A stretch of 64,000 nucleotides of DNA from contig CADBDH010000005.1 of assembly GCA_902793405.1 (NCBI GenBank), positions 58,619-122,618 on the forward strand, in the 5' to 3' direction. The stretch comes from an uncultured Bacteroidales bacterium. Its GTDB lineage: Bacteria > Bacteroidota > Bacteroidia > Bacteroidales > Muribaculaceae. Shown in pieces: positions 14,728 to 63,098 of the stretch. The notes below the pieces were generated by a model. That model did not search any database and was not told the origin of the DNA. It saw only the letters and a list, made by a program, of their open reading frames with translations. Made by a program: the position numbers and the translations under genes. Positions within the stretch are counted from its first letter, which is position 1; every line of letters begins with the position of its first letter.

Positions 14728-14768
14728 GCGGGCTAACGCCCGCAGTTTAGGGTTTAGAGTTTAGGGGA
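14728..14768 (+). repeat. Hairpin plus TTTAGRG heptamer element after pyrH
   Basis: One base after the stop codon lies the hairpin GCGGGC-TAAC-GCCCGC (14728-14743). AG and then TTTAGGG TTTAGAG TTTAGGGG on the sense strand follow. The same plan is seen after gyrB, rdgB and trmH. Confidence 0.75.
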
Positions 14769-14806
14769 TCTGCGCTCCTAATGGAATTTATTCAAGACCT
14801 TACCTA

Positions 14807-14854
14807 TATCGTCCTGAGATAGTTTGAAAAAAGTCAAACTATTTCAGGACGATA
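14807..14854. terminator. Long stem-loop between convergent pyrH and LOG genes
   Basis: Arms of 21 nt (14807-14827 and 14834-14854, one mismatch) surround a 6-nt loop. It is placed to end transcription from both sides. Confidence 0.65.
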
Positions 14855-14900
14855 CTTTATTTCTGGAAAATAAAAGGTTGTTTTTGGTTGTTCCCCGTTG

Positions 14901-15881
14901 TTACGGTTGGTTGAAACAAGATTGCTCAGTTGATTGCTGGCTATAGGCCTGCAGGGTGGCCACGACTTCGTCGATGTCGTCGGTGATGGAGAGCAACAGG
15001 TTACGGTACTTGCCGGTGTTCATCAGGCGATCCATGAGGGGATAAACGGGGATTTCCTCGGTCCAGAATCGCTTGCCCAGGAAAATCATCGGGCTGGAGA
15101 AGCCGTAGGACAGGTAGTGGTTCTGCACCGCTTCCTGGAAAATCTCTTGCAGGGTTCCCGCGCTGCCCGGGGCATAGATGGTTCCGCCAAAGGCCAGCGT
15201 GAGGATATGGTCCTCGCGCAAGCTGTTCTCGAAGTACTTGGCGATGTGGGTGGCGAATGGCGTTGACGGCTCGTGGCCGTAGAGCCACGTGGGAATGCCC
15301 AGACTCACATACTCCTGCTGGGGATACTTGTCGATGACGCTGAAGGCGGTGCGCAGCCATCCTGCATCCCTGAACGACGGCGAGGGCATCATCATAGCTA
15401 GGGCGTCTTCCACGTCACGGGTCGAGAAGCCCGCCATCCAAGCTCCCAGGTGAGTCGCTTCCATGGCTCCAGGCCCACCACCGCTCAACATGACAAACCC
15501 CTCTTGGGTGAGCCGCTGGCTCAGCAAGGCTATGTCGCGGTAAATGCTGTCGGTCCTGAGCAGGGCATGCCCGCCCATGATGCCCACGCTGCGGCGATGG
15601 TCGTAGGTCTTGAAGAACCGTGCCAGCGCCGTGTGGATGCAGTGGTCGTGCAGGGTGCGCGCCAGCAACTCCTTCACATTGTTGGTGTGCTGTCCCATCG
15701 CCTTGTAGCGCTGATAAATCACACTGTCAAAGCAACGGTCAAAACTGCTCTCATCGTCGGGGTCGAAGCCTTCATAGAGTTCGGCCGGATGGTAGAGCGA
15801 CTTGCGCGACACGTCATAGGGCACCTCGGCCAGATAGGCCATCACGTCCTTCAGTTCTTCATATCCTGTTGAGGTAATCAT
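14901..15881 (-). CDS. LOG-family Rossmann-fold nucleotide-binding protein
   Basis: 326 aa. The core carries the LOG/lysine-decarboxylase-like signatures MLSGGGPGAMEATHLG and PGSAGTLQEIFQEA (family PGGxGTxxE, here with SAG instead of GGxG at the second position). LOG proteins are phosphoribohydrolases acting on nucleoside monophosphates; those with long extra regions, like this one with about 100 N-terminal residues, resemble the nucleotidase branch. It is cytoplasmic and transcribed alone. The exact substrate is not predictable here. The Ala in the second motif could alter activity. Confidence 0.82.
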   Translation of the reverse strand: MITSTGYEELKDVMAYLAEVPYDVSRKSLYHPAELYEGFDPDDESSFDRCFDSVIYQRYKAMGQHTNNVKELLARTLHDHCIHTALARFFKTYDHRRSVGIMGGHALLRTDSIYRDIALLSQRLTQEGFVMLSGGGPGAMEATHLGAWMAGFSTRDVEDALAMMMPSPSFRDAGWLRTAFSVIDKYPQQEYVSLGIPTWLYGHEPSTPFATHIAKYFENSLREDHILTLAFGGTIYAPGSAGTLQEIFQEAVQNHYLSYGFSSPMIFLGKRFWTEEIPVYPLMDRLMNTGKYRNLLLSITDDIDEVVATLQAYSQQSTEQSCFNQP

Positions 15882-15927
15882 CGGCTTGTCTTTTTTAGTA
15901 TCAGAGGATGAAATGTTGTGATTGCAG

Positions 15928-15935
15928 CAAAGTTA
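15928..15935 (-). promoter_or_regulatory. -7 box of the LOG gene
   Basis: TAACTTTG on the minus strand, about 46 nt before the ATG. No clear TTTG sits at the -33 position. Confidence 0.4.
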
Positions 15936-16063
15936 GCACTTATTTGCCTCATTTTCCAGCGTTTTTAACAGTTTTGGATTGTTAAAAAATGTAATAATAT
16001 GGTGATATGGGGTAAAAATGCCATTTTTAGTGACTTTTTGCCCACAAATTGGCGTTGCGATAG

Positions 16064-16071
16064 TAATTTTG
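16064..16071 (+). promoter_or_regulatory. -7 box of the FadL-like gene
   Basis: TAATTTTG with TTTG at 16037-16040, 23 nt away, a little long. The ATG follows at 16124. Confidence 0.45.
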
Positions 16072-16123
16072 TAGCCTCAAAATCTCCACTTCAGGTTTGT
16101 ATATATTAAAAAATGTGATAGCA

Positions 16124-17587
16124 ATGAAAAGAATTACAACATTAGTACTCTGTGTCGCTTCCGTGTGCTCGACTGCATTTGCCGGTGGCCTGCTGCATAA
16201 CACCAACCAGCACATCGCTTTCATGCGCATGATGGCTCGTGGCGCTAGCCATGAGATCGACGCCGTCTATACCAACCCCGCCGGTCTGGCCTTTATGGAC
16301 CATGACGGCTGGACCCTGTCGCTGAACATCCAGAGCGCCTCGCAGAGGCGTGACGTGCTCACCACGTTTGCTCTCTTCCCCGAGCCCGACCACACCCGCC
16401 TGTACAAGGGCAAGGCCGAGGCTCCCGTGATTCCGTCGCTCTATGGCGCCTACAAGAAGGACCGCTGGACGTTCTCGGGTTTCTTCGGTTTCACCGGTGG
16501 TGGTGGCAAGTGTAACTTCGACAGCGGACTGCCCGTGTTTGACGCAAGCATCATGGCCGGCATCTATGGCCAGACCGCAGGTCTGAAGAAGACGTTGGCC
16601 GAGAATCCCGCTACGGCTCCTATCCTTGCCGACCCGCGCATCGCATCCTTGCTGCCCTTGACGGCCGACAAGTATGACATCAACTCGGCAATGAAGGGCC
16701 GCCAGTACATTTACGGCCTGCAGCTGGGTGCCACCTACAAGCCCCTGGATTGGCTGAGTGCCTATGCCGGTGTCCGCATGAACTACTTCGACGGCAATTA
16801 CACGGGCTTTGTCAAGGTGATGCCCAAGCCCGACATGGCCTCGACGGTTCAACAAATTGCTCTTGCCTATCCCCAACTGGCTTCTACGTTGAACACTCTG
16901 GTTAACCAGAATGGCGAAATGGCCAACATCGAACTCGACTGTTCACAGACCGGTTGGGGCATCACGCCCATCATCGGCGTGGACCTCGTGTGGAAAGGCT
17001 TTACCCTTGCAGCCAAGTATGAGTTCAAGACCAACCTCAACATCGAGAACGACACCAAGAAGGCCACTGCCGAGCCCGCCGCATTTGAGACGGCCCTCAA
17101 CGACTACAAGCATGGCGTGAACACCCCCAACGACCTGCCCGCAGTATTCTATGCCGCTCTGGGTTATGAGTTCATCCCCAAGAAGTTGCGCGCTACCGTC
17201 GAGTATCACTACTACGACGACAAGCATGCCGAGATGGCCCATGACAAGCAGAAGGCCCTGCGTCACGGCACTCACGAGGTGCTGGCCGGCGTGGAATGGG
17301 ACATCAACAAGATGTTCACCGTGAGCGCTGGTGCCCAGAACACCGACTACGGTTTGAGCAATGCCTTCCAGACCCACACCTCGTTCTCTTGCGACAGCTA
17401 CTCCATCGGCTTTGGTGGCGCTGTGAACGTCAACGAGAATATCAAAGTGAACGTGGGCTACTTCTGGACCACCTACAAGAAATATGACCGCAGCGAGGAG
17501 AACTACTTCAACACCACGCTGCCCGGTAAGGACACCTACAGCCGCACCAACAAGGTGTTTGGCGCCGGTATCGACTTCAAGTTCTAA
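16124..17587 (+). CDS. OmpP1/FadL-family outer membrane transporter
   Basis: 487 aa from the ATG at 16124, which opens a typical signal peptide (MKRITTLVLCVASVCSTAFAG); an in-frame ATG at 16097 would only add nine residues. Near the N-terminus NPAGLAFMDHDGWTLS matches the FadL/OmpP1 plug-region signature (asparagine-proline-alanine). The remainder alternates short strands with aromatic girdles and ends in FGAGIDFKF, a beta-barrel C-terminus with terminal Phe. FadL proteins carry hydrophobic molecules such as fatty acids across the outer membrane. A terminator follows immediately. Confidence 0.88.
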   Translation: MKRITTLVLCVASVCSTAFAGGLLHNTNQHIAFMRMMARGASHEIDAVYTNPAGLAFMDHDGWTLSLNIQSASQRRDVLTTFALFPEPDHTRLYKGKAEAPVIPSLYGAYKKDRWTFSGFFGFTGGGGKCNFDSGLPVFDASIMAGIYGQTAGLKKTLAENPATAPILADPRIASLLPLTADKYDINSAMKGRQYIYGLQLGATYKPLDWLSAYAGVRMNYFDGNYTGFVKVMPKPDMASTVQQIALAYPQLASTLNTLVNQNGEMANIELDCSQTGWGITPIIGVDLVWKGFTLAAKYEFKTNLNIENDTKKATAEPAAFETALNDYKHGVNTPNDLPAVFYAALGYEFIPKKLRATVEYHYYDDKHAEMAHDKQKALRHGTHEVLAGVEWDINKMFTVSAGAQNTDYGLSNAFQTHTSFSCDSYSIGFGGAVNVNENIKVNVGYFWTTYKKYDRSEENYFNTTLPGKDTYSRTNKVFGAGIDFKF

Positions 17588-17615
17588 AAGACAACTAAGA
17601 ATCTTTTCCTATAGG

Positions 17616-17656
17616 CAACGCCGCCACTCGACAGAGAAAATCGAGCGGCGGCGTTG
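17616..17656 (+). terminator. Rho-independent terminator of the FadL-like gene
   Basis: A 16-bp GC-rich stem (17616-17631 with 17641-17656, one mismatch) with a 9-nt loop, then ATTTT. Confidence 0.8.
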
Positions 17657-17730
17657 ATTTTCGGGCCCATCTTCTCATGCCGCAAAGGTGAAATATTATG
17701 CAGGAAAAACAACAATCCAGAAAATAAATG

Positions 17731-17738
17731 TACCTTTG
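17731..17738 (+). promoter_or_regulatory. -7 box that fixes the start of the deiminase gene
   Basis: TACCTTTG matches TAnnTTTG. It overlaps the first codons of the longest reading frame (from 17728), so the real start must lie downstream; the ATG at 17779 is chosen. Confidence 0.6.
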
Positions 17739-17778
17739 CGCTAATAATGAACCAATTCACCCATTAACTCATATTTTT

Positions 17779-19410
17779 ATGAAAAGAAAAAACTCATTTT
17801 TAGCTTTACTCGTTTTTGTTTCGATGATGTCGTCAATAGGCTGCTTGAACGCTCAGGCACAGAAACGTGAAGCGCCCGACTGGAGAAAACTTCATTACAC
17901 GTCCGAAGAAGAAATGCGGATCCCGATGAAGAAGAGCATCAACTTCACAGCGACACCCGCGCCAGCCGAAGCACCCCGATTCGTGGCAGAGTTTGAGCCC
18001 ATGCAGGGCGTGACGATTCGCTATCCGCTGGGCATACCGGTTGCCTTGGTTAAAACGTTGGCCGAGAACTGCCAGGTGTACTGCATCGTGCAGTCGTCCT
18101 ACCAGTCAAGAGCACGATCGGCTTTCAGCAACGCAGGAGTGAATATGAATCGTGTCACCTTTGTGAACGCTGCGTCAGATTCCTACTGGGTGCGTGACTA
18201 CGGCCCCTGGTATATCTTTGCCGGCAAGAATCCTGCCATTGTGGACAACGTGTATAACCGTCCCAGGCAGAACGACGATGTAATACCCTCGGCTTTTGCC
18301 ACGTTCTGGGATATCCCCATGTACAGCATGAACCTGGTACACACTGGAGGCAACATGATGGAGGACGGACGCGGACACGCCGTTAGCGACGTATTGGTCC
18401 TTAACGAGAACAATAATGACGAGGCCACCGTGCGCAGGCTGATGCTCGAATACCTCGGTATCGACAACTACCACATCACCATTGATCCTCAACAAGACTA
18501 CATTGCCCATGTTGACTGCTGGGGAAAATACCTGGCCCCGGACAAAATCCTGATTGCCAAACTGCCGGCGAGCGATAGCCGATATGAGAACTATGAGGCC
18601 GTAGCCAACTATTTCGCTACTACCAATTGCTGCTGGGGCTATCCCTACAAGGTGTACCGCGTCGAGGAACCTGGTGGCAGCACCGTTGCTCCCTATACCA
18701 ACAGCCTTATCCTCAACAAGCACGTTTATGTGCCCATGGGCAGCAACAGCACTTACAATGAACGCGCACTCCAGGTCTACAGGGAAGCCATGCCCGGCTA
18801 CGAGATCGTAGGCGTGTACAACAACACCAGCGGCATCGAGTGGCTCAATACCGATGCCCTGCACTGCCGCACACGCGGTGTGATGGACTTCAACATGCTG
18901 TTTGTTGACCACAGGGACGTTCTCTTCGGCACGCAGGATTGTACCGATTCCATCGCCGTTACGAGCAAGTTCATCGCCTATAGCGGCAAGCCCCTGAAGG
19001 AGGACTCGCTATTGGTATACTACAGCATTGACAACGGCCCCTATCAGGTTGCACACATGAGACCCACTGGCACTCCCGATGAATATGTAGGCTACATCAA
19101 GGGCTATCACCAGGCCTCAGAGGTTGACTACTACGTCTTCGGTGCCGACGAGTCAGGACATCGCTATCAGCAGCCCGTGTTCGGCGAACTGGACCCCCAC
19201 CACTTCACTGTCAACATGACCATTACCTTCATCCTGGGCGACGTGAACAACGATGGTAATGTGAATATTGCCGACATGACCAGGCTGATCGACTTCCTCC
19301 TGGGCGACACTATTTCGCCGTTCAACAGCACGGCTGCCGATATTGACAGCAACGGCGAAATCAACGTGGCCGACGTCACAGCCCTTATCGATTTAATTCT
19401 GGAGAATTAA
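17779..19410 (+). CDS. Secreted peptidylarginine-deiminase-like enzyme with dockerin
   Basis: 543 aa with a signal peptide ending near AQAQ. Residues about 60-385 form the agmatine/peptidylarginine deiminase fold of the Porphyromonas type (PAD_porph). The catalytic set is complete: Asp140 (WVRDYGPW), His244 and Asp246 (AHVDCWGKYL) and the nucleophile Cys363 (ALHCRTRG). VYNRPRQNDD gives Arg161 and Arg163 at the place of the two arginines that bind the substrate carboxylate in P. gingivalis PPAD. An Ig-like segment (about 385-470) follows, then a dockerin-like pair of calcium loops (GDVNNDGNVNIADMTRLIDF and DIDSNGEINVADVTALIDL). Secretion plus the arginine pair favours peptidyl-arginine citrullination over agmatine hydrolysis; this is inference. 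It is monocistronic. Confidence 0.88.
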   Translation: MKRKNSFLALLVFVSMMSSIGCLNAQAQKREAPDWRKLHYTSEEEMRIPMKKSINFTATPAPAEAPRFVAEFEPMQGVTIRYPLGIPVALVKTLAENCQVYCIVQSSYQSRARSAFSNAGVNMNRVTFVNAASDSYWVRDYGPWYIFAGKNPAIVDNVYNRPRQNDDVIPSAFATFWDIPMYSMNLVHTGGNMMEDGRGHAVSDVLVLNENNNDEATVRRLMLEYLGIDNYHITIDPQQDYIAHVDCWGKYLAPDKILIAKLPASDSRYENYEAVANYFATTNCCWGYPYKVYRVEEPGGSTVAPYTNSLILNKHVYVPMGSNSTYNERALQVYREAMPGYEIVGVYNNTSGIEWLNTDALHCRTRGVMDFNMLFVDHRDVLFGTQDCTDSIAVTSKFIAYSGKPLKEDSLLVYYSIDNGPYQVAHMRPTGTPDEYVGYIKGYHQASEVDYYVFGADESGHRYQQPVFGELDPHHFTVNMTITFILGDVNNDGNVNIADMTRLIDFLLGDTISPFNSTAADIDSNGEINVADVTALIDLILEN

Positions 19411-19415
19411 TCATG

Positions 19416-19461
19416 CCTGCTGGCAGAATTAAGTGAGCACATGCTTGATTCTGCCGACAGG
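19416..19461 (+). repeat. Inverted repeat after the deiminase gene
   Basis: Arms of 18 nt (CCTGCTGGCAGAATTAAG and near-complement, three mismatches) flank an unpaired centre. It has no T-run. It precedes the true terminator at 19514 and may stabilise the 3' end of the mRNA. Confidence 0.5.
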
Positions 19462-19513
19462 TCTGCTATTGATTGCTTTCAATAGTATCTATAAAACCTA
19501 AATAGCAATAATG

Positions 19514-19555
19514 AACCCGTCCGCAGCGCCTTATCGGCATTGCGGACGGGTTTTT
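19514..19555 (+). terminator. Rho-independent terminator of the deiminase gene
   Basis: A 16-bp stem (AACCCGTCCGCAGCGC with its near-complement, wobbles only) is followed by TTTTT. Confidence 0.85.
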
Positions 19556-19609
19556 CCTGATATATGTTACCGAGTTTTTGTGATGAAAAACAGGGGTAAC
19601 CGAGATTGT

Positions 19610-21415
19610 CTAGTCTTCTGAGGAATTGCGTTTGATCGTTTTCTTTTTTGTTTCTAATGCCTTATTGGGTAGCACTGTTTGACCTTTTTTAGATTTCGAG
19701 TATTTGATACGTTCTTCTGCAATAATGTCTGGAACACCCTTTTCACTGATGGTGATGATGAGATTGTTGACGCCATCACGCAATGGTTGAACGTCAATTA
19801 GATATTTAGTTTTGCTCAACTGCTTGGTTTTACAAACCACACTATCGCAGATCTCCCCCTCATCATCCAAAATGTATCGATCTTCGACTTCGCAATTTAT
19901 GGACAACGGATAATCAGGTTCACCTGTCTTTTTATCTTTGTTAAGAGTTAATGTAGCGGTGTAGTGATTATTGTTTATCTTCTGGTTAGTAAGATTAAGA
20001 GAAGAGATATATTTGCTGGATAGCGATCTGGACTGAATTGAGAAAACTGGCGACTTGAGATTGTCATATTGAACCTGAACATCATAGTTGATGACAGTGA
20101 CGCTGTTTTCTATATCACTACCCTCATATTTGAGTTCATTGGGATAATACAAGTCACATTTGTATTGGATTGAGTTCCCATGTATGAGCTTAGAGTCTGC
20201 ATTGATTACGCCATTCTCCGATATCATCATTAGCTCAGCGCTGGTTGGCGTGATGGCTTTTGGCAGGTCGACTCGCACTTTGGTATCATAAGCCGCGTGT
20301 CTAAAGTCTATGAGTTTGCCCTCGTTGAGCGACAGGGTAAATTTCTCATCTTTAAAGGTCTTGATTAATCCCCATTTTCCATTGAGTTTAACACAAACTT
20401 TTTCGTCAAAGCGTGTCCCGACTTCATCGAACTGCGGTGCAAGAATCTCGAGCGAATCACCCCACCAGATGGCTTTATTCCTTAGACCTGATTTCACACG
20501 TAATTTTGAAGTGTAATATTGCTGTTCAATGGTTCGAGGTTTAAATACCCTCTCTCCATTGACATATTTGATGGATACAGGAGCGCAGAACGTGTTAAGT
20601 TTTATAATGACATTACCTTCATCACCACATTTTGCCGGAAGTGTAGAATAGCCTCTGAAGTCATAGGTAAGAACCTTTTTCCAATCTTCGACTTCGGCTT
20701 GATGCTTACCATCCCAGTATTCCTGATGCGCATACATGGGCTTGAGAGTCATCACTTCGGGTTTTCCGATCACTTCAAATGTGAATAGTTTGTCTTTAAC
20801 GACCGCGATACCGATGCCTTCATCGTTGATCGATGAAATAAAAGTCATTCGTTCTGGATCTATCGGTTGACCAGATTGATCAACGAATTTAACGGGCTGC
20901 AAATCCTTATTCAATAATACATAGTGCTCATATGGTGTATTCTTAGGTACACAGATAGCATAATCGTTCAAGAACGGGCATGCATCTTTGAAGTTAAAAC
21001 CATGAGGTTTGCCATCAGTACCAATGAAATCATAACCATTCTCGTTCTTGACAAGTAACAAATGGTTGCTGAATCGATTATACTTGTAGGCGAGCTCGTA
21101 ATGACCATCTTTGAGATTTGTAAATTGCCCCTTTGTATCAAAGAAACCTGTAACCTTATAAATGCTGTCAGGGTAAGTCGTGACAGCAAGGTCCTCGACA
21201 AAGGGCATGATATGGTCTTGGGTAAAAGCTAATTTTTCACCGTCAAAAGTCCATAATGAACTCTCACCGTTTAATTCCGAAATAATAAGGGGAGCACCTT
21301 CGGCTATATCCATCTTGTCGTAGTCGGGTTGAATGATCCATTGTGCAATTTGCGCATTGGCAATACTTGCCGTGATAATGGCCATTATCGATAGGAATTT
21401 TCGTATCATATGCAA
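19610..21415 (-). CDS. Exported WG-repeat-like protein of unknown function
   Basis: 601 aa with a signal peptide (MIRKFLSIMAIITASIANAQ; the ATG at 21409 is an equally good start). The N-terminal two thirds contain weak WG-like repeats (KLNGKWGLIKTF, VTGFFDTKGQFTNLKDG, LVKNENGYDFIGTDGKP), and the C-terminal part looks like beta-sandwich domains. The last about 25 residues are Lys-rich. I do not recognise a named family. Base composition is visibly more AT-rich than the flanking genes, suggesting recent acquisition or weak selection. It stands alone between terminators. Confidence 0.7.
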   Translation of the reverse strand: MHMIRKFLSIMAIITASIANAQIAQWIIQPDYDKMDIAEGAPLIISELNGESSLWTFDGEKLAFTQDHIMPFVEDLAVTTYPDSIYKVTGFFDTKGQFTNLKDGHYELAYKYNRFSNHLLLVKNENGYDFIGTDGKPHGFNFKDACPFLNDYAICVPKNTPYEHYVLLNKDLQPVKFVDQSGQPIDPERMTFISSINDEGIGIAVVKDKLFTFEVIGKPEVMTLKPMYAHQEYWDGKHQAEVEDWKKVLTYDFRGYSTLPAKCGDEGNVIIKLNTFCAPVSIKYVNGERVFKPRTIEQQYYTSKLRVKSGLRNKAIWWGDSLEILAPQFDEVGTRFDEKVCVKLNGKWGLIKTFKDEKFTLSLNEGKLIDFRHAAYDTKVRVDLPKAITPTSAELMMISENGVINADSKLIHGNSIQYKCDLYYPNELKYEGSDIENSVTVINYDVQVQYDNLKSPVFSIQSRSLSSKYISSLNLTNQKINNNHYTATLTLNKDKKTGEPDYPLSINCEVEDRYILDDEGEICDSVVCKTKQLSKTKYLIDVQPLRDGVNNLIITISEKGVPDIIAEERIKYSKSKKGQTVLPNKALETKKKTIKRNSSED

Positions 21416-21611
21416 AGAATTAAGCTTAAGATTACAAACTGGAGGAATTAGACAATAAAGAATAAATAGCTACACAATCAATCATTGATTTCATAAGCAA
21501 CTTTTTGCAAAAGTCGCAATAATTCCTGATGTATGCAAATAATCGCCCTATTTTAATTAATGAAACATCTAGTAAACAATGATATAAAGAAAAAAGCATG
21601 TAGAGCCATCA

Positions 21612-21638
21612 TCCGTAAAAACTCATCGGTTTCACGGA
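21612..21638 (-). terminator. Stem-loop downstream of the LD-carboxypeptidase operon
   Basis: Read on the minus strand, TCCGTGAAA pairs with TTTTACGGA (one wobble) around a 9-nt loop, about 35 nt past the last gene. The T-run lies in the descending arm. It is a weak terminator candidate. Confidence 0.4.
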
Positions 21639-21670
21639 CGGGCTAAGGCCATGTGTTGAGCCTCATGTGG

Positions 21671-22213
21671 TTAGCGCAACAGGTTGGACATCATAGTGTT
21701 CCAGTCCTGGGCATCGGAGATGCTGCTGAGCATTCCCTCATGGGCGGGGAAGGCGAGGCTGTCGTTGAGGGTGTAGGTCACCTGAGGCAATCTCACATAC
21801 AGGCTCAACGTGTTCAGCGTCTCGCCGTTCTTGTACTGCTCGCCCAACTGCTTGAAATCGGGCGCATTGATGTAGTACAGACGGTCGCCCTTGTTGCACA
21901 GGTAGATGCGCGTGAAATCGCGGTCGCCCAGTTCCTGAGCGCACTGCAGCAGGCAGCGCGTGACGTCAAAGCGGTCAAAGTCACGCTCGTCGGGCTCGCC
22001 CACGTTGAAGGCCAGTTCCTTGCCGGGGTTGTACCAGGGCTGCCTCACCTCGATGTTGATGCCGTTGTTGGCCGGGTCAAGGTTCTTGAGCTGTACACGC
22101 GAGATGACCTTGCGGCCGCCGCGCACAGCATCCACCGACACAAAAGCATGAGCGGCAACCAGCGCCAGCACCGCAATGATGGCGAGAATGAGCAGTTTAT
22201 CGTTCCGGGTCAC
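21671..22213 (-). CDS. Small membrane-anchored protein, unknown function
   Basis: 180 aa. One N-terminal hydrophobic segment (residues about 7-26, LLILAIIAVLALVAAHAFV) acts as anchor or uncleaved signal; the rest is a soluble alpha/beta region with no motif I recognise. Its ATG overlaps the stop of the LD-carboxypeptidase gene by four bases (ATGA), so the two are translationally coupled and probably work in the same process at the cell envelope. Confidence 0.7.
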   Translation of the reverse strand: MTRNDKLLILAIIAVLALVAAHAFVSVDAVRGGRKVISRVQLKNLDPANNGINIEVRQPWYNPGKELAFNVGEPDERDFDRFDVTRCLLQCAQELGDRDFTRIYLCNKGDRLYYINAPDFKQLGEQYKNGETLNTLSLYVRLPQVTYTLNDSLAFPAHEGMLSSISDAQDWNTMMSNLLR

Positions 22214-23265: not shown

Positions 23266-23316
23266 AATGTATTTAATCGTTTTATGGACGCAAAATATTG
23301 TGTCTCAGTTTCTTAT

Positions 23317-24447: not shown

Positions 24448-24483
24448 CTGGTTATCACTCCACTTAAAAAGAAGACAATAAGC

Positions 24484-24534
24484 ACAATAAATACAAACAA
24501 TTGAATCTGTAATTGTACTTATTGTATTTATTGT
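24484..24534. repeat. Palindromic ACAATAAATACAA element, copy 1
   Basis: ACAATAAATACAA (24484-24496) and its exact complement (24522-24534) form a 13-bp outer stem, with an inner CAATT/AATTG pair. It lies between two minus-strand genes. A related element is at 56670-56741, and a half copy lies just after 28152. Confidence 0.6.
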
Positions 24535-24549
24535 TTTCCTTTACTTACG

Positions 24550-25320: not shown

Positions 25321-25340
25321 CCTTTTCAAAAACTATTGAC

Positions 25341-36037: not shown

Positions 36038-36091
36038 GAGTGAGGAGTGAGGAGTGAGGAGTTATAAGTGAGGAGTTATAAGTGAGGAGTT
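36038..36091 (+). repeat. Tandem GTGAGGAGTTATAA repeat before cstA
   Basis: Three shorter GAGTGAG units lead into a 14-nt unit GTGAGGAGTTATAA repeated about two and a half times. It lies between the lipoprotein stop and the cstA start and ends about 25 nt before the cstA ATG. AACTAGAAACCAGAAATT then runs up to the ATG. Confidence 0.7.
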
Positions 36092-39269: not shown

Positions 39270-39310
39270 ATATATAGTTTCCAGTTGCTTAAAGCTGATA
39301 TCAACCACGA

Positions 39311-39365
39311 ACTAAAAACTAGAAACTAAGGACTAGAAACTAGGGACTAGAAACTAAGAACTAAA
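39311..39365 (+). repeat. ACTAAAAACTAGAAACTA array directly before the PAP2-like gene
   Basis: Imperfect repeats of ACTAAAAACT, AGAAACTAAGG and ACTAGAAACTAGGG fill the 55 nt up to the ATG at 39366. The array is purine-rich with little T and has no Shine-Dalgarno. It resembles those before ispG and leuS. Confidence 0.7.
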
Positions 39366-40007
39366 ATGAACAGATACTCTGTCAACAAGCTGATTGCGGG
39401 CGTCGCACGATTCATGTCCACGGCACTGACCCCGCTGCTGATGCCCACCTACGGCATATTCCTGATATTGTGGGTGTCGGTGCTTTGCCTATTGCCCTAT
39501 GGCAGCCGGGTGGCCGTGCTGCTCGTGTGCATGGGCATCACCTGTATCGTGCCTCTCATCTTCCTGAGTGTGCTGCGTCACTTCAGCCTCATCAAGGACC
39601 TGCACGTCAACGTGCGCGAACAGCGGCTCTTCCCTTACCTGTTCACCGCCTTGTGCTATGGCGTCGCCGCCTATTATCTGTATTCCTCCTGCCATGCGCC
39701 GCAGTGGTGCGTGATGTTCATGGTGGGGTCGGCCATTACAGTGGTCCTGATGGCGCTGATTAACCTCAAGTGGAAAGTGAGTGCCCACATGGCGGGCATT
39801 GGAGGAGTAATCGGCCTGATTTACCAGATACATGTACAGGGCCTGAGCGCATTCGACCTGTTGTGGTTGTTGTGCCTCAGCATCATTGTGGCAGGTTTGC
39901 TGGGTTCTTCACGCCTGATACTCAAGCGCCACGACATTTGGCAGGTGCTGGTGGGCGCCGTGGTGGGTTTCCTGTGCGTGTCACTGACCATGCGTCTGCT
40001 TGGCTAA
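39366..40007 (+). CDS. PAP2-like integral membrane protein
   Basis: 213 aa with about five or six transmembrane helices. The C-terminal part keeps pieces of the PAP2 (phosphatidic acid phosphatase 2) signature: KVSAHMAGIGG, comparable to the PSGH block, and SRLILKRHDIWQVLVG, comparable to the SRxxxxxHxxxD block, with His kept but the final Asp not obvious. It may be a lipid or undecaprenyl pyrophosphate phosphatase, or a degenerate relative. It lies between rpoN and ispG; polyprenyl metabolism would fit ispG, but this is inference. Confidence 0.7.
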   Translation: MNRYSVNKLIAGVARFMSTALTPLLMPTYGIFLILWVSVLCLLPYGSRVAVLLVCMGITCIVPLIFLSVLRHFSLIKDLHVNVREQRLFPYLFTALCYGVAAYYLYSSCHAPQWCVMFMVGSAITVVLMALINLKWKVSAHMAGIGGVIGLIYQIHVQGLSAFDLLWLLCLSIIVAGLLGSSRLILKRHDIWQVLVGAVVGFLCVSLTMRLLG

Positions 40008-40025: not shown

Positions 40026-40079
40026 ACTAAAAACTAAGGACTAAAAACTAAAAACATAGAACTAAAAACTTAAAACCAG
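40026..40079 (+). repeat. ACTAAAAACTAAGGACTA array directly before ispG
   Basis: Repeats of ACTAAAAACTAAGGACTA and ACTAAAAACTAAAAAC in the same sense orientation as the array at 39311. It runs to within a few bases of the ispG ATG at 40083. Confidence 0.7.
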
Positions 40080-44486: not shown

Positions 44487-46554
<2,068 letters not shown>

Positions 46555-46618: not shown

Positions 46619-46681
46619 GATTTAAACGAGCCTTTGGCTCCGTGGGGCGTAATCCCCGCGACGATATATACATCTACAACA

Positions 46682-46718
46682 ACCCCTGGGACCGTCATTG
46701 GACCCAGGGGTATTTTTT
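46682..46718 (+). terminator. Rho-independent terminator of gyrB
   Basis: A 12-bp stem (ACCCCTGGGACC with its near-complement, one mismatch), a 6-nt loop, then TATTTTTT. It lies in the 405-nt gap after gyrB together with the two repeat elements; short palindromes (GAGCCTTTGGCTC, GGGGCGTAATCCCC) lie just before it. Confidence 0.85.
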
Positions 46719-46816: not shown

Positions 46817-46903
46817 AAGTAGAGACGCAAAATCTTGCGTCTCTGGGTAGGCATGATAGTATCTTTCCACGATTGGGAGACGCAAGATTTTGCGTCTCTA
46901 CTT
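46817..46903. repeat. Perfect 27-nt inverted repeat with palindromic arms
   Basis: The left arm (46817-46843) and right arm (46877-46903) are exact reverse complements over 27 nt. Each arm is itself nearly palindromic (GAGACGCAAAATCTTGCGTCTC type), so each can fold alone or pair with the other across a 33-nt spacer. It resembles REP-like GTAGAGACGC elements scattered in many Bacteroidota genomes. Confidence 0.85.
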
Positions 46904-53367: not shown

Positions 53368-53463
53368 TGATACTAGTGATTTGAGTTATTGATAAAATGA
53401 TTATTTTTCATATTCAAGTATTCTGTCATGCCCTGTAATAGTGGCATTTACAAAATTTGCCGG

Positions 53464-53494
53464 CAAAATTAAGGATAAAAATTCATATAACAAA
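53464..53494 (-). promoter_or_regulatory. Promoter of M6 paralogue 1
   Basis: On the minus strand, TTTG (53491-53494), a 19-nt spacer and TAATTTTG (53464-53471), about 96 nt before the ATG. Confidence 0.7.
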
Positions 53495-53610
53495 AACCAC
53501 AGCAGCAATATGCCTGTAAACCTACGGAATATAGGAGCCAAAACATACAACAATAAATGTGACGGGAGCGTGCACCCCCGCCACATCGGTATTTTCTATA
53601 GAAAAAACCT

Positions 53611-56469: not shown

Positions 56470-56669
56470 TTGAATTTTTGGTTGATAGTTATTTAGACTT
56501 ATTGATTAAATAAATTACAATATTGCTGCAAATATACTATCATTTTCCCATTGAATACTACAAACCACGACAGTTTCTCACATAACTATCCACATAGAAT
56601 GTAAATTCAAGCCTAACGCCACTCATGATGCTCCCCTTCCCTACAATAAAACAACTGCCATATAAAAAG
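56470..56669. other. Upstream region of M6 paralogue 2
   Basis: AT-rich non-coding DNA. On the minus strand TATATTTG (56529-56536) with TTTG (56561-56564) 24 nt upstream is a possible promoter. No ORF is seen. Confidence 0.4.
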
Positions 56670-56741
56670 GAAAACAACAAGTACAACAAATACAAAAACT
56701 TTGATTTTCAGTAATTTGTATTTATTGTACTTGTAGTTTTC
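56670..56741. repeat. Palindromic ACAAATACAA element, copy 2
   Basis: Arms of 27 nt (56670-56696 and 56715-56741) pair with two mismatches around an 18-nt loop. The core ACAAATACAAA/TTTGTATTT matches the ACAATAAATACAA core of the element at 24484. Confidence 0.7.
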
Positions 56742-56780
56742 TACTTCCCAAAAAACGTCGTTTTGAATGCCAAAAATGAC

Positions 56781-56857
56781 CGCTCGCGCCAGCGAGCGCT
56801 AACGCGGATGCCCCCTAAACTCTAAACCCTAGACCCTAGACGCTCGCGCCAGCGAGC
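56781..56857 (-). repeat. Double-hairpin plus heptamer element overlapping the rdgB end
   Basis: Two near-identical hairpins (CGCTCGC-GCCA-GCGAGCG at 56781-56798 and GCTCGC-GCCA-GCGAGC at 56842-56857) flank a block that reads, on the rdgB sense strand, CTAGGGTCTAGGG, TTTAGAG, TTTAGGG, then GGGCATCCGCG. The second hairpin encodes the last residues of RdgB. The plan matches that after trmH. Confidence 0.8.
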
Positions 56858-57429
56858 ATCAAGTATTCCACGAGGCGGGCGACAGCGCGGCCGCGGTGGC
56901 TGATGCGGTTCTTGTCTTGGGGCGACATCTGGGCAAAGGTACTGCCGTCACCCTCGACGGGCTGGAAAATGCTGTCGTAGCCGAAGCCACCCGTGCCGTG
57001 GCGCTCGGTAAGGATAACGCCCTCGACCTGTCCCTCGAACAGGTGCATCTCGTCACCCTGCAACAGGGCTATAGCGGTGCGGAAACGAGCCGTGCGATTG
57101 CCGATTCCATCGAGTTTTTTCAGCACTTTGTCAATATTGGCCTCGCTGTCATGACCTGGTCCGGCATAACGTGCCGAGTAAACTCCCGGCTCACCATCAA
57201 GGGCATCAATTTCCAGTCCAGTGTCGTCGCTGAAGCAGTCATAACCGTAATGCTCCTTGACATAGCGGGCCTTCATTTGGGCATTTTCCTCGATGGAATG
57301 GCCGGTTTCGGGAATATCCTCATGGCATCCGATGTCGGCCAGACCCAGAATTTCATAGGTATCGCCCAACATCTGACGCAGCTCCTGCAGCTTGTGTGCA
57401 TTGTTGGTGGCAAAAACAATCTTCTTCAT
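56836..57429 (-). CDS. rdgB: XTP/dITP diphosphatase (non-canonical purine NTPase)
   Basis: 197 aa. It hydrolyses XTP, ITP and dITP to monophosphates and keeps them out of nucleic acids. Motifs: FATNNAHKLQELRQML at the N-terminus, SDDTGLEIDALDGEPGVYSA with metal-binding Asp residues, FGYDSIFQP and SHRGRAVARL. The last eight residues (LMLAGASV) and the stop codon come from the hairpin-heptamer element, so the native C-terminus has been replaced or extended. It is last in the nadA-gpx-leuS-rdgB run. Confidence 0.95.
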   Translation of the reverse strand: MKKIVFATNNAHKLQELRQMLGDTYEILGLADIGCHEDIPETGHSIEENAQMKARYVKEHYGYDCFSDDTGLEIDALDGEPGVYSARYAGPGHDSEANIDKVLKKLDGIGNRTARFRTAIALLQGDEMHLFEGQVEGVILTERHGTGGFGYDSIFQPVEGDGSTFAQMSPQDKNRISHRGRAVARLVEYLMLAGASV

Positions 57430-57495
57430 CTATTAAACTACGAATTACACTAATTAAACTAATTGGCATCCGCACCTTACAACTACTATCTATAA

Positions 57496-57557
57496 AACTA
57501 CGAATTATGCGAATTGAACTCATTTATTAATTCGTAAAATCCGCGTAATTCGTAGTT
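57496..57557. repeat. AACTACGAATTACGCG inverted pair between leuS and rdgB
   Basis: AACTACGAATTATGCG (57496-57511) and CGCGTAATTCGTAGTT (57542-57557) form a 16-bp stem with one wobble. A partial copy (AACTACGAATTACACTAATT) lies just before the rdgB start at about 57434, and one half occurs at 29871. Confidence 0.7.
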
Positions 57558-57565
57558 GAAAAAGA

Positions 57566-60337
57566 TTAAACGACTACGTTGACGATCTTGTTTGGAACGA
57601 CGATGACCTTCTTGGGCTGCTTGCCGTCGAGCCAGCGGGCAGCACCCTCGTCGCTGAGGGCGATGCGCTGCACCTCGTCCTGGGCGGTACCGGCGGGCAC
57701 CTCGATGTTGTAACGGGGCTTGCCGTTGAACAGAACGGTATATTTCACCGTCGATTCCTTGAGGTATTCCTCGTTCCAGGTGGGCCACTCGGCGTCACAC
57801 ACGGTGGTGTCGTGACCCAGCACGTGCCACAATTCCTCGGCAATGTGCGGGGCGAAGGGTGCCAGCAACACTACCAGCGGCTCATAAATCTCACGGGCAC
57901 GGCACTTCATGGCGGTCAACTCGTTGACACAGATCATAAAGGCGGCTACCGATGTGTTGTAGCTGAAGGTCTCGACGTCGCCACTCACCTTCTTGATGAG
58001 TTTGTGGAGCGACTTGAGAGCCTCGGCACTGGGCTTCTCGTCGGTGAGTTGCATGTTGTCGCCCTTGTAGAACAATGCCCACAGACGCTTGAGGAAGCGG
58101 TTCACGCCGTCGATGCCGTTGGTATCCCAAGGCTTGCTGGCCTCGACGGGACCCAGGAACATCTCATACAGGCGCAGGGTGTCGGCACCATAGCGGTCAA
58201 CGATATCGTCGGGGTTAACGACGTTAAACATCGACTTGGACATCTTTTCGATGGCCCAGCCGCAGATGTACTTGCCGTTCTCGAGGATGAACTCGGCATC
58301 CTTGAACTCGGGGCGCCACTCGCGGAACTTTTCGATATCCAGTGCATCGGCATGAACGATGTTGACATCCACATGGATGGGCGTCACGTCATACTCGTCT
58401 TTGTGATTCAAGGTGACGAACTTGTTGGTGTCCTTGATGCGGTAAACGAAGTTGCTGCGACCCTGAATCATACCCTGGTTGACCAGTTTGCGGAAAGGCT
58501 CGGCCTCGCACACATAGCCGTAGTCATAGAGGAACTTGTTCCAGAAACGGCTGTAAATCAAGTGACCAGTGGCGTGCTCGGTACCACCCACATAGAGGTC
58601 CACCTGACGCCAATACTCGTTGGCCTCGTGCGAAACGAGTTCCTTGTCGTTGCGCGGATCCATATAGCGCAAGTAGTAGGCCGAAGAACCGGCAAAACCA
58701 GGCATGGTGTTCAATTCCAGGGGATAACCCTCGGTGGTTACCCAACCCTTGGCACGGCCCAGGGGCGGCTCACCCGTCTCGGTGGGCAGGAACTTGTCCA
58801 CCTCGGGCAGCTGCAACGGCAACTGGCTCTCGTCGAGGGCCTGAGGCTGATTGTTCTCATCATAATAGATGGGGAACGGCTCACCCCAGTAGCGCTGACG
58901 ACTGAAGATGGCGTCGCGCAAGCGGTAATTCACCTTAACGTGGCCGATGCCCGATTCCTCGATATACTGCTTGGTCTTGGCAATGGCTTCCTTGACCTGC
59001 AATCCGTTGAGCTGCAGGCGCTCGTTGGACGAGTTGGCCATGATACCCTCCTTGGCGTCGAAGCTCTCCTCGCTCACGTCGGCACCCTCAATCAGCGGAA
59101 TGATGGGCAGGTCAAAATGCTTGGCAAAAGCATAGTCGCGGCTGTCGTGGGCAGGAACTGCCATGATGGCTCCCGTGCCGTAACCGGCCAGCACATAGTC
59201 ACTGATATAAATAGGTATGTTCTTGCCCGTGATGGGGTTAACGGCATAGCTGCCGGTAAACACACCGCTCACCTTCTTTTCAATCATGCGCTCGCGCTCG
59301 GTCTTGTGCTTCACCTCGTCGAGGTAGGCATCGACGGCGGCACGCTGGTCGGGAGTGACCACGTCGTCCACGTAGATGCTCTCGGGCGCCAGTACCATAA
59401 AGGTGACACCAAAGATGGTATCGGCCCTGGTGGTGAAAATCAACAGGCTCTTGTCGCTGTCGGCGATGGGGAAGGTCATCTCGGCACCCTCGCTGTAGCC
59501 AATCCAGTTGCGCTGGGTTTCCTTGATGGACTCGGTCCACTCGATGGTGTCCAAATCACGCAGCAGACGGCCGGCATAGGCCGACACGCGCAAGCACCAC
59601 TGGCTCATCATCTTCTGCTCGACGGGAAAACCGCCGCGCACCGACACACCCTCGCTCACCTCGTCGTTGGCCAGCACGGTACCCAACTTGGGACACCAGT
59701 TCACCATCGTGTTGCCAAGATAGGCAATGCGGTAGTTCATGAGCACGTCGTTCTTCTGTACCTGGGTCATGGCGTTCCACTCGTCGGCGGTAAATTCGTC
59801 GGTGCAGTTGGTGTGTGCATTGCAGCCTTCGGTACCATGCTTCTCGAAGTGGGCCACCAGCTCGGTAATGGGACGCGCCTTGTCGAGCTCGGTGTTATAA
59901 TAGCTCTTGAACATCTGCAGGAAGGCCCACTGTGTCCACTTGTAATAGGTGGGGTCACAGGTGCGCACCTCACGGTCCCAATCGTAGCAGAAACCTATCT
60001 TGTCCAACTGCTCACGGTAGCGGGCAATGTTCTGGTTGGTGGTGATTTCGGGATGCTGTCCGGTCTGGATAGCATATTGCTCGGCGGGCAGACCGTAGGC
60101 ATCATAGCCCATGGGATGCAACACGTTAAAACCTTTCAGGCGCTTGTAGCGCGCATAGATGTCGCTGGCGATGTAGCCCAGCGGATGCCCCACATGCAAA
60201 CCTGCTCCCGAGGGATAGGGGAACATGTCGAGCACATAGAATTTGGGTCGGCTGTTGTCAATTTCGCATTTATAGGTGTGATGGTCACGCCAGTATTGTT
60301 GCCACTTTTGTTCTATCTCTTTATAGTTGTAGTCCAT
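57566..60337 (-). CDS. leuS: Leucyl-tRNA synthetase
   Basis: 923 aa. It charges tRNA-Leu in the cytoplasm. Class I signatures: [16 protein letters not shown] (HIGH region, residues about 38-53) and EKMSKSMFN (KMSKS). The CP1 editing domain lies between ([16 protein letters not shown]). The length is slightly above the bacterial average of about 860. A long open frame on the opposite strand is a shadow. An array of ACTAAAAACTA type lies directly before the ATG. Confidence 0.97.
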
Positions 60338-60396
60338 TTAGAGTTTTAAGTTGTTAGTTTTTAGTTGTTAGTTGTTAACCTCTAAACTTTAATTTA
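60338..60396 (-). repeat. ACTAAAAACTAACAACT array directly before leuS
   Basis: Read on the minus strand, repeats of AACAACT, AACTAAAAACT and AACAACTTAAAACTCTAA run straight into the leuS ATG. This is the same orientation relative to the gene as the arrays before the PAP2-like gene and ispG. Confidence 0.7.
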
Positions 60397-61005
60397 TCAG
60401 AGGAGTTTTTTGATGGCTTCCTCGATGACTTTGCAGTCGGTGGTGGGCTCATAGCGCTCAACCACGTTGCCCTCGCGGTCGACGAGGAACTTGGTGAAGT
60501 TCCACTTGATGTCGGGCTTGCTGGCATAGTCGGGATCGGCCTTGGAGAGCATCTCGTCGAGCAGGGCACCAATCTTGTGATCCTTGTCAAAACCCTTGAA
60601 ACCCTGCTGAGCCTTCAGGTAGGTGAACAGGGGCGACTCATTCTCGCCGTTGACCTCGATTTTCTTGAACTGCGGGAACTCGGTGCCGAAATTCAAGGTG
60701 CAGAACTGATGGATTTCCTCCTCGGTGCCGGGTGCCTGCTCGCCGAACTGGTTGCAGGGGAAGTCGAGAATTTCCAGGCCCTTGTCCCTATATACCTTAT
60801 ATAATGCCTCCAGTTCCTCGTATTGCGGGGTAAAACCGCAACGGGTGGCGGTGTTGACAATGAGCAGCACCTTGCCATTATATTCGTTTAACGACACGTC
60901 GTTACCACGACGATCCTTCACTGTGAAGTCATAAACGTTCTGTGCCATAGCAGTATTCATTAAATTTATAATGATTAATAATGATAAAATTCTTAATGTC
61001 TTCAT
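60397..61005 (-). CDS. Glutathione-peroxidase-family thiol peroxidase
   Basis: 202 aa from the ATG at 61005, which opens the signal-like MKTLRILSLLIIINLMNTAM; an in-frame ATG at 61020 adds five residues. The peroxidatic motif is LLIVNTATRCGFTPQY with Cys in place of selenocysteine, followed by LDFPCNQFGEQAPG and WNFTKFLVDREGNVV. It reduces peroxides, usually with thioredoxin in bacteria. The N-terminal signal suggests periplasmic location. It lies between nadA and leuS, 21 nt after nadA. Confidence 0.92.
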   Translation of the reverse strand: MKTLRILSLLIIINLMNTAMAQNVYDFTVKDRRGNDVSLNEYNGKVLLIVNTATRCGFTPQYEELEALYKVYRDKGLEILDFPCNQFGEQAPGTEEEIHQFCTLNFGTEFPQFKKIEVNGENESPLFTYLKAQQGFKGFDKDHKIGALLDEMLSKADPDYASKPDIKWNFTKFLVDREGNVVERYEPTTDCKVIEEAIKKLL

Positions 61006-61026
61006 ATATACTTGTATCATAAACGG

Positions 61027-62013
61027 TTACTTGATAATTCCCAGTTCACGGGAAATGTCGAGCATGCGCTGGATGGGACGCACGGCGCGCTCGGCGATGT
61101 CCTGGTCCACCTCGATAGTGGGTGCCATGAATTTGAGAGAATTATACAATTTCTCCAGGGTTATCAATTTCATGTACTCACACTCGTTGCAGGCACAGGT
61201 GCCGTCCTCGGGCGGAGCGGGAATAAAGGTCTTCTCGGGGCAACGGCGCTGCATCTCAAATAGGATGCCGCTCTCGGTGCACACGATGAACTCCTGGCTC
61301 TCGTTGTCCACGGCATAATTGAGCAGGGCCTGGGTCGAACCCACCTTGTCGGCCATGATGCGCACGGGCTTGGGACACTCGGGATGCACAAGCACCTTGG
61401 CATCGGGATGTTCCTGCTTGAGGTCGGCCAGCTTCTGTACACTGAATTTCTCGTGCACATGGCAAGCGCCGTCCCACAGCAGCATCTCACGTCCCGTGAT
61501 GCTGTTGATGTAGTTGCCCAGGTTGCGGTCAGGGCCGAAAATGATTTTTTCATCCTCGGGCAGGCTGCCCACGATCTCCTTGGCATTAGACGAAGTCACC
61601 ACCACGTCGGTCACCGCCTTGACGGCTGCGCTGGTGTTGACATAGCTCACTACCGTGTGGTCGGGATGCTCGTTGACAAAGCGTTCAAACTCGTCGGCAG
61701 GGCAACTGTCGGCCAGAGAGCAGCCGGCACTCAAGTCGGGCACGATGACCGTCTTGTCGGGGCACAGGATCTTGGCCGTCTCGCCCATGAAGTGCACACC
61801 GCACAGCACGATGACCGGTGCATCGGTCTTGGCCGCCAGCTGGGCCAATGCCAGACTGTCGCCGATGTAATCGGCCAGCTGTTGGATTTCCTCGCGCTGA
61901 TAATAGTGCGCCATGATGACAGCGTTGCGCTCACGTTTCAAGCGCAGGATTTCCTCTCTCAGGTCGATACCCTCTTCGATGGGTTCATCGACATAGCCTT
62001 TTTCAACATTCAT
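61027..62013 (-). CDS. nadA: Quinolinate synthase
   Basis: 328 aa. It condenses iminoaspartate with dihydroxyacetone phosphate in NAD synthesis and needs a [4Fe-4S] cluster. Motifs: MAHYYQREEIQQLADYIGDS, VLCGVHFMGETAKIL with the first cluster Cys, the VTSSNA loop, HPECPKPV with the second and CACNECEYMKL with the third. The first gene of the minus-strand run; its promoter lies in the 441-nt gap upstream. No nadB or nadC is in the window. Confidence 0.95.
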   Translation of the reverse strand: MNVEKGYVDEPIEEGIDLREEILRLKRERNAVIMAHYYQREEIQQLADYIGDSLALAQLAAKTDAPVIVLCGVHFMGETAKILCPDKTVIVPDLSAGCSLADSCPADEFERFVNEHPDHTVVSYVNTSAAVKAVTDVVVTSSNAKEIVGSLPEDEKIIFGPDRNLGNYINSITGREMLLWDGACHVHEKFSVQKLADLKQEHPDAKVLVHPECPKPVRIMADKVGSTQALLNYAVDNESQEFIVCTESGILFEMQRRCPEKTFIPAPPEDGTCACNECEYMKLITLEKLYNSLKFMAPTIEVDQDIAERAVRPIQRMLDISRELGIIK

Positions 62014-62454
62014 ATTATATATTGTGTTTTTAAATTTTTTAAAATCTTTATTTTAACTACAACAATAATGCCTGTTAATTGTGTAGAAAACTTTTTCGCT
62101 CTGCTCCCCACCCCATCGATTGTCAACGTCAAAAACGAGTTATCGATAGTTTATCTACAAGCCTAATGGCTGTGTCATAGTGGTTAAGGCTGTTTATTAA
62201 CAGGGTGTAAACAACCTGCAAAGTTAATAAATTCTCATGGAATTTCATCCTAAATTGTGATGAAAACCGTGTTTATAGGCTAAGAAAAATTTATTGCTAA
62301 CTTTTTTGGCCGCCAAGAAAAGATTGATAATCCGTATCGATTTGAAATTGTCAAGTGTTTTATGTGATTTTTTTTGAAATAGTTTTGAACAACAATTATC
62401 AGGGTTATTGACACGATTATTGTACCTTTGTGCTGATAAATATATAATGAGAAC
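62014..62454. other. Divergent regulatory gap between nadA and trmH
   Basis: 441 nt, AT-rich. On the minus strand TAACTTTG (62219-62226) is a candidate -7 for nadA, about 205 nt from the start, without a clear -33. On the plus strand TACCTTTG (62423-62430) is the likely -7 for trmH, 25 nt before its ATG. No ORF, riboswitch or RNA gene is recognised. Confidence 0.45.
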
Positions 62455-63009
62455 ATGTCAAGGAAAAAAACGATGATAGAACTGCACCGCATGGGTGTAG
62501 AAGAATATAAAGAGGTGGAGAAGCTGCCGGTGACGGTGGTATTGGATAATGTGCGCAGCGAGATGAACGTGGGTTCGGTAATGCGCACGGCCGACGCCTT
62601 CCTCATCGAGCGCATCGTGTTGTGCGGCATCACGCCGCAACCGCCCAAACCCGAAATTCACAAGACTGCCCTGGGAGCCGAGGAATCGGTCGACTGGCAA
62701 TACTATCCCACTACCATTGCTGCAGTCGAGGATCTGAAACGTGACGGCTACCTGATTTGTTCGATCGAGCAGGTACATGACAGTGTGAGCCTCGAACAGT
62801 TTATTGTCGAAAAAGGGAAAAAGATCGCTGTGGTGATGGGCAACGAGGTCAAGGGCGTGAGCCAGGAGGTGGTCGATGCCAGTGACGTGTGTGTCGAAAT
62901 TCCGCAGCATGGCACCAAGCACTCGTTGAATATTTCGTGTTGTGCCGCCATCGTCATGTGGCATTTGTATGCTCGCTGCGCGAGCAGTCTAGGGTCTAGG
63001 GAACTTTGA
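62455..63009 (+). CDS. TrmH/SpoU-family RNA 2'-O-methyltransferase
   Basis: 184 aa. SPOUT-fold enzyme that methylates a ribose in tRNA or rRNA. Three family blocks are visible: LDNVRSEMNVGSVMRTADAF, VMGNEVKGVSQEVVD and IPQHGTKHSLNISCCAAIVMW, the last forming the trefoil knot. The last twelve residues (ARCASSLGSREL) are encoded by the hairpin-heptamer element, as in rdgB. The natural end was probably near MWHLY. Confidence 0.92.
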   Translation: MSRKKTMIELHRMGVEEYKEVEKLPVTVVLDNVRSEMNVGSVMRTADAFLIERIVLCGITPQPPKPEIHKTALGAEESVDWQYYPTTIAAVEDLKRDGYLICSIEQVHDSVSLEQFIVEKGKKIAVVMGNEVKGVSQEVVDASDVCVEIPQHGTKHSLNISCCAAIVMWHLYARCASSLGSREL

Positions 63010-63098
63010 TGTTCGCTTTGCTCACAGTTTAGGGCATAGAGCTTAGTGCTTAGGGATGGGGCATCCGTATTCATTCTGTTGAATGGAGCGCGGATGCT
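62971..63098 (+). repeat. Hairpin plus TCTAGGG element overlapping the trmH end
   Basis: GCTCGC-TGC-GCGAGC (62971-62985) then AG TCTAGGG TCTAGGG lies inside the reading frame. A second weaker hairpin and AGTTTAGGG, CATAGAG, CTTAGTG, CTTAGGG follow, ending in GGGGCATCCG, which pairs with CGGATGC at 63091-63097 as a possible terminator. GGGGCATCCG is also the end of the rdgB element. Confidence 0.8.

Follow-up and report, generated by a model that had tools for sequence, protein, structure and literature searches.

Palindromes in the 3' untranslated regions (3' UTRs) of genes, which protect mRNA ends, are known in the form of repetitive extragenic palindromic (REP) elements and of the 3' inverted repeats of plastids. 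REPs share their sequence and are associated with a transposase; loop inversions are known for the plastid hairpins, which to our knowledge are not accompanied by a heptad array. Then, could a palindrome and tandem heptamers be joined into one element at the ends of bacterial genes? Here, we describe such an element in a stretch of 64,000 nt (the window) of an uncultured Bacteroidales bacterium of the Muribaculaceae (assembly GCA_902793405.1, contig CADBDH010000005.1, positions 58,619 to 122,618), where it is found at the ends of the pyrH, gyrB, rdgB and trmH genes. The element is composed of the stop codon, a palindrome that usually has a loop of 3-4 nt, and an array of RGTYTAG units, and this anatomy and its orientation are shown in the genus of this bacterium, where dozens of unrelated genes end with a near-perfect palindrome of this kind and its heptads.

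The following comparisons with described systems refer to the consulted sections of the respective papers. Direct repeats of the heptamer TAACTGA occur in Beggiatoaceae, Cyanobacteria and a few Bacteroidetes (MacGregor, 2015, PMC4679880). They are likewise intergenic heptanucleotide arrays, with 169 sets in one genome and a sporadic distribution between relatives; their forward orientation gives stops in three frames, and some overlap stop codons. However, they consist of another heptamer and lie mostly just 5' of start codons, and those sections describe no palindrome beside the arrays and no predicted structure for the repeats themselves. The GGGNATC heptamers of Xanthomonas and Nostoc (Rehm, 2015, PMC4692102) are, as here, sense-strand repeats that occur genome-wide within 50 bp of stop codons, with no link to mobile elements. 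However, they form quadruplexes and prefer four units, for which only 4 of 95 arrays qualify here, and their stem-loops are reported to arise from two facing repeat sites, with no separate palindrome at the stop codon. Template switching can create perfect stems in one step and account for multibase compensatory changes (Monttinen and Loytynoja, 2022, PMC8794818), which resembles the pattern described below, but it is presented there for RNA genes and is linked neither with stop codons nor with a shared repeat. In the consulted part of the open-licence PubMed Central literature, no description of a stop-codon palindrome followed by heptads was recognised, and the heptad letters returned unrelated matches only.

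Four elements in the window

The initial annotation had reported a hairpin followed by sense-strand heptads at the ends of the four genes. All four were re-read as claimed, with the heptads on the sense strand in every case. The features are as follows.

14724-14726, pyrH stop codon
14727-14744, plus strand, pyrH hairpin with a 7-bp stem, 0 nt after the stop codon
14746-14766, plus strand, pyrH heptad array of 3 TTTAGRG units
46552-46554, gyrB stop codon
46555-46588, plus strand, gyrB hairpin with a perfect 15-bp stem and a 4-nt loop, 0 nt after the stop codon
46590-46617, plus strand, gyrB heptad array of 4 units
46644-46657, plus strand, GGGGCGTAATCCCC stem 3' of the gyrB element (context, not part of the element)
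46683-46718, plus strand, separate stem and T-run downstream of the gyrB element (context)
56842-56857, minus strand, rdgB hairpin of the shared GCTCGC class, within the open frame
56813-56840, minus strand, rdgB heptad array of 4 units; its first unit contributes the stop codon of the open frame (TAG, 56838-56836)
56782-56797, minus strand, second and identical GCTCGC hairpin of rdgB, behind the GGGGCATCCG block
62970-62986, plus strand, trmH hairpin of the GCTCGC class, within the open frame
62988-63001, plus strand, trmH heptad array of 2 perfect units, followed by a GTTCGC-like motif and degenerate units to about 63055

As had been noted, the GGGGCATCCG block is common to rdgB and trmH, and the hairpins differ except for these two genes: those of pyrH and gyrB are locus-specific, and those of rdgB and trmH belong to the shared GCTCGC class. 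Two details have to be corrected. Units of the TTTAGRG type are present, but directly next to the hairpin they are in the register RGTYTAG; and the hairpin comes after the stop codon at pyrH and gyrB but lies inside the open frame at rdgB and trmH. For trmH, the hairpin and heptads fall in the final 40 nt of the open frame, and the array itself in the final 22 nt. The GCTCGC element has thus become part of the protein end at rdgB (56813-56857) and trmH (62970-63009), and relatives without it have different open-frame ends. The pyrH orthologue of one relative, G208, is without the element, and the pyrH hairpin of another, G207, is nearly identical. A search of the window against Rfam, the GGGGCGTAATCCCC stem included, gave 0 matches at the gathering score. 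Further downstream of gyrB, at 46820-46900, there are palindrome pieces of the AGAGACGCAAAATCTTGCGTCTCT type, whose motif recurs in sister genomes and which apparently form a separate palindromic repeat.

Anatomy across the genome

The genome that holds the window (G000) comprises 3.19 Mb in 72 contigs, with a completeness of 90.27. All of its 231 overlapping matches to TYTAGRGTYTAGRG (TYTAGRG pairs) were enumerated, and 69 stretches, mostly of about 6 kb, were read around those outside the window. Since the window contains 14 matches to TTTAGRGTTTAGRG (no more than two mismatches) against 0.59 expected, and the genome 231 pair matches against 0 for the reversed pattern, the heptads are not due to chance. 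Being tandem, non-coding and overrepresented, they are heptanucleotide simple-sequence repeats of the type termed LSSR (long simple sequence repeat) or STRR (short tandemly repeated repetitive sequence). The number of arrays depends on the rule: 95 in the first printing, 94 when the arrays are extended over imperfect units before a flush hairpin is scored, 98 with a looser seed, and 86 clusters in the gene-context test.

Under the 94-array rule, 61 arrays begin flush behind a hairpin, 46 of them outside and 15 inside the GCTCGC class, compared with 8 of 940 shuffled flanks (0.9%) and 6 of 375 offset positions (1.6%) scored by the same rule. The earlier rule found a stem ending at the array in 57 of 95 cases; its controls gave 3.6% for dinucleotide shuffles, 4.0% for 569 offset positions and 12 of 95 for the far side of the array. 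Duplicates were left out, as were arrays less than 60 nt (mismatch count) or 70 nt (shuffle and offset controls) from the end of a locus. Two sister genomes, G207 and G221, were tested for the same anatomy, and 34 of 55 arrays are flush in G207 (shuffles 4 of 550, offsets 2 of 217). Among the 47 non-GCTCGC hairpins of G000 obtained with the looser seed, 24 have a 4-nt loop and 18 a 3-nt loop.

The position at the stop codon is equally regular. When the stop upstream of each hairpin is taken as the end of the longest nearby open frame, which may be wrong for a few, 29 of the 42 non-GCTCGC hairpins with a readable stop start 0-4 nt after it, and 10 start before its end. For 72 of the 86 clusters the gene upstream is on the same strand, and some of the other 14, with an opposite-strand gene upstream, may be misses of the open reading frame (ORF) caller; 61 clusters are within 60 nt of a same-strand stop, and no cluster is located more than 30 nt inside an ORF. 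The proposed tie to gene ends therefore stands, and genome-wide neither placement nor orientation is random. The accompanying proposal of an interspersed repeat family, as opposed to a simple terminator, is supported as well, with one refinement: the heptads and, for a subset, the GCTCGC hairpins are shared, but the element is not one dispersed sequence family, because most of the non-GCTCGC hairpins are locus-specific.

Are these hairpins ordinary intrinsic terminators, behind which the heptads are tolerated as neutral simple-sequence repeats? We consider this unlikely, albeit worth taking seriously. At one convergent gene pair the array is indeed flush behind an A/T-tract bidirectional terminator, where G221 has a plain terminator, and intergenic heptads are common in further genomes, chiefly of Bacteroidota, where most of the matches listed are without a hairpin. 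However, most flush hairpins are followed by RGTYTAG units without a U-tract, and an A/T tract is found within the stem in only a few of them. The distance from the stop differs as well. A perfect hairpin of 9 bp or longer occurs at 41 of 498 gene ends, counted in the window and in stretches from ten sisters. Twelve of these hairpins are flush with heptads; they represent 5 different loci, include 7 gyrB orthologues and start at a median distance of 0 nt (interquartile range 0-2.25) from the stop, whereas 6 with a T-tract and 23 others start about 20 nt from it; in this count a hairpin between convergent genes may be included from both sides, and one G208 hairpin with another heptad flavour is classed with the others. 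As the initial annotation had pointed out, the gyrB terminator is separate and lies further downstream, and it is also seen in relatives that lack the element, hairpin included. Finally, chance tolerance of repeats does not explain a junction of zero bases.

Presence and absence among relatives

The genus survey covered 101 genomes. RGTYTAGRGTYTAG is present in 63 of them, with 0 to 232 copies per genome against 0-4 for the reversed control, and zero counts (G208, G165 and G232) occur even among species whose GyrB is at least 96% identical. Behind the gyrB stop, reading by eye found the hairpin and heptads in 19 of 29 readable relatives and neither in 10 (one of 30 loci, L246, was left out). 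The GGGGCGTAATCCCC stem, also read by eye, is retained by 7 of the 10 relatives without the element and by most of those that have it. For a second gene, read in the same manner, the hairpin is present in 9 of 24 readable relatives, absent in 14 and unclear in 1, the reading pattern having failed to match 6 of 30 loci, which were left out. At both genes, the hairpin and the heptads are jointly present or absent.

A scan of other, named genomes covered 80 of 117 stretches, mostly from Bacteroidota metagenome-assembled genomes, many of them ruminant-derived. Among the matches listed, the heptads there show no strand preference (52 vs. 42), and a flush hairpin occurs in 9 of 122 arrays, compared with 3.2% of shuffles. 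Three of these nine (L142, L169 and L174) have 79-85% DNA identity to G000 and, judging from that identity, probably belong to its lineage.

Copy numbers that are so different between sister species could also be produced by a mobile repeat family, similar to REPs or to miniature inverted-repeat transposable elements, whose insertions occur at stop codons and share one orientation. The GCTCGC class is in fact a shared multi-copy sequence with a GCATCCGC flank, and tandem units 53 nt apart are found at L040. However, the conserved palindrome expected of REPs is confined to this subset, since 46 of the 61 flush hairpins are outside the class and hold little common sequence to mobilise, and the orthologues compared show a 3' arm that matches local, partly coding, sequence. 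Nor is there a link to a transposase or reverse transcriptase. We therefore regard mobility as quite unlikely. As for candidate drivers, RVT_1 has 0 matches in G000 (E 1e-5; genome about 90% complete). Y1_Tnp (HUH/Y1 transposase) has 3 in G000, 0 in G221 with its 157 heptad matches and 5 in G208 with 0 heptad matches, so heptad copy number does not follow the Y1 transposase in the genomes compared. No driver gene was found among the families tried (RVT_1, Y1_Tnp and RRM_1).

Another shared hairpin, TGCAGGCCATGGGCCTGCA, precedes heptads at L393, L404, L405 (with one variant), L407 and L408 of G207 and at L071 of G000.

Evolution of the stem

The covariation check suggested for the hairpins was made at gyrB, where the stems covary over 17 species. 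In the alignment of these 17 hairpins (16 distinct; two short ones of 19, L231 and L238, were left out), 97.4% of the cells are paired and 8 of 15 pairs have double-sided changes, values reached by 0 of 500 shuffles. When folded, the 3' region of gyrB greatly exceeds shuffled sequences in stability (z -8.0), with much of this contributed by the palindrome itself and the terminator.

In the hairpins of the second gene, the 5' arm takes in the last bases of the coding region, and a reverse-complement copy of this gene end forms the 3' arm. G204 and G218 have a mismatch at a position that differs on the coding side, and imperfect stems are also seen in G000 and G200. Orthologues of G000 and G207 with 85-91% DNA identity can differ in the palindrome that occupies the site (L042/L412, L043/L403 and L080/L401), and one pair with 95.5% identity (L048/L391) has the same stem with an inverted loop. 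Stem mismatches outside the GCTCGC class are rare, with 8 in 47 hairpins of G000 (G-T 4, A-C 3 and C-T 1) and 0 in 25 hairpins of G207. Selection at the RNA level should tolerate G-U above A-C. The nearly equal numbers of G-T and A-C, together with the inverted loops and the wholesale replacement of palindromes, fit template switching at the DNA level.

Heptad arrays

The order of units is not random. Among the arrays behind the 47 non-GCTCGC hairpins of G000, 12 open with TTTAGAG-TTTAGGG-TTTAGAG, and TCTAG units crowd near the hairpin (21/47, 18/47, 9/46, 7/40 and 2/16 by successive position). This order suggests that heptads were copied between arrays rather than generated by independent slippage.

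A period of 7 puts UAG in three frames, and the heptads could act as a translation insulator behind a hairpin that might promote readthrough. The off-consensus units of G000 and G207 taken together keep a stop triplet in 42 of 45 cases and never change the TA core, which weakly fits a three-frame stop function, and at rdgB a heptad is the stop codon. On the other hand, these units are non-independent and were picked by similarity, arrays in other genomes stand in both orientations among the matches listed, and heptads carrying stops in every frame are simply excluded from genes, as has already been noted (MacGregor, 2015, PMC4679880). An insulator is thus highly unlikely in our judgement.

The UAG-type repeat could likewise be the target of an RRM-type (Rbp) RNA-binding protein, as the Bacteroides RRM protein RbpB has peaks in 3' UTRs, among other places, according to the consulted part of its description; or the arrays could form G-quadruplexes. 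Both readings are largely refuted, and we give them hardly any credence. RRM_1 is found in 0 of the 101 genus genomes at E 1e-5, and the Bacteroides control genome has one; four GGG tracts, and hence a four-tract quadruplex, are possible only in the 4 of 95 arrays mentioned above.

Other repeats of this kind were also seen. Different heptad flavours (GATTAG, GGTTAGA) stand behind some of the hairpins in relatives and vary by locus. In the window, heptad arrays of the AACTAAG/AACTAGA and ACTAAAA types at 39310-39366 and 40026-40076 end at or just before ORFs starting at 39366 and 40083, and similar ACTARRR arrays stand behind several TTTAGRG arrays. Two more arrays with a period of 7 or 14 are located at 36038-36091 (AGTGAGGAGTTATA) and 60342-60378 (AGTTTTAAGTTGTT).

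Proposed explanation

We propose, at somewhat less than even confidence, that this is a 3' UTR element anchored at the stop codon. Its palindrome would arise and be renewed in situ, at the DNA level, and might serve as a 3' stem-loop of the mRNA. The in situ making and renewal is the part that we infer with the best support, from the sequence comparisons above. In this scheme, a short template switch would copy the gene-end sequence as its reverse complement, and further switching would keep the palindrome perfect at the DNA level, while the heptads would be copied and homogenised between loci through slippage and conversion. Once transcribed, the hairpin at the stop might shield the message end or slow the polymerase, a role that is plausible by analogy with the 3' UTR palindromes of REPs and plastids, and the heptads would form an exposed tail behind it, with UAG in every frame.

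Several observations weigh against this explanation. By score, 33 of the 94 arrays are without a flush hairpin, although 22 of these have a subthreshold GCTCGC-like motif, and the anatomy is weaker in G221, with 8 of 21 arrays flush (shuffles 1 of 210, offsets 1 of 84). Not every palindrome is independent: 14 of the 47 have a T(T)CAAG-type start, the hairpins of L031 and L092 resemble GCTCGC variants, and those of L098 and L099 sit behind near-identical genes. The wobble test rests on small numbers, and the stem finder favours perfect stems. There is no clear deficit of T-tract terminators at gene ends with arrays (2 of 60) relative to those without (11 of 235), the caller having found few anywhere. 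On the gyrB tree, the presence of the element needs 8 changes against a shuffled mean of 8.4, i.e., it is unclustered, which reflects either fast turnover or a poor tree; the well supported branches force only 2 changes. L119 and L139 are clear flush hairpins in named records not placed in the genus. Consequently, this lineage is strongly enriched in the hairpin, which may nevertheless occur outside it, and the heptad does occur outside it. Finally, template switching alone does not account for the occurrence of the same heptads after unrelated palindromes.

A bolder and decidedly doubtful version would have an active process, operating at stop codons or transcript 3' ends, write an inverted copy of the last bases of the gene and then a templated heptad tail. 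Perfect hairpins would thereby be made and renewed gene by gene, with structure and position inherited and the sequence replaceable.

If true, this would be a natural case of hairpins that arise and are exchanged as a whole at dozens of fixed positions at gene ends, for which the filled and empty sister species would provide before-and-after pictures. The origin of perfect RNA stems and the upkeep of their pairing would then become directly testable in bacteria, and the Bacteroidales would possess a new class of 3' UTR that terminator finders based on the U-tract have overlooked.

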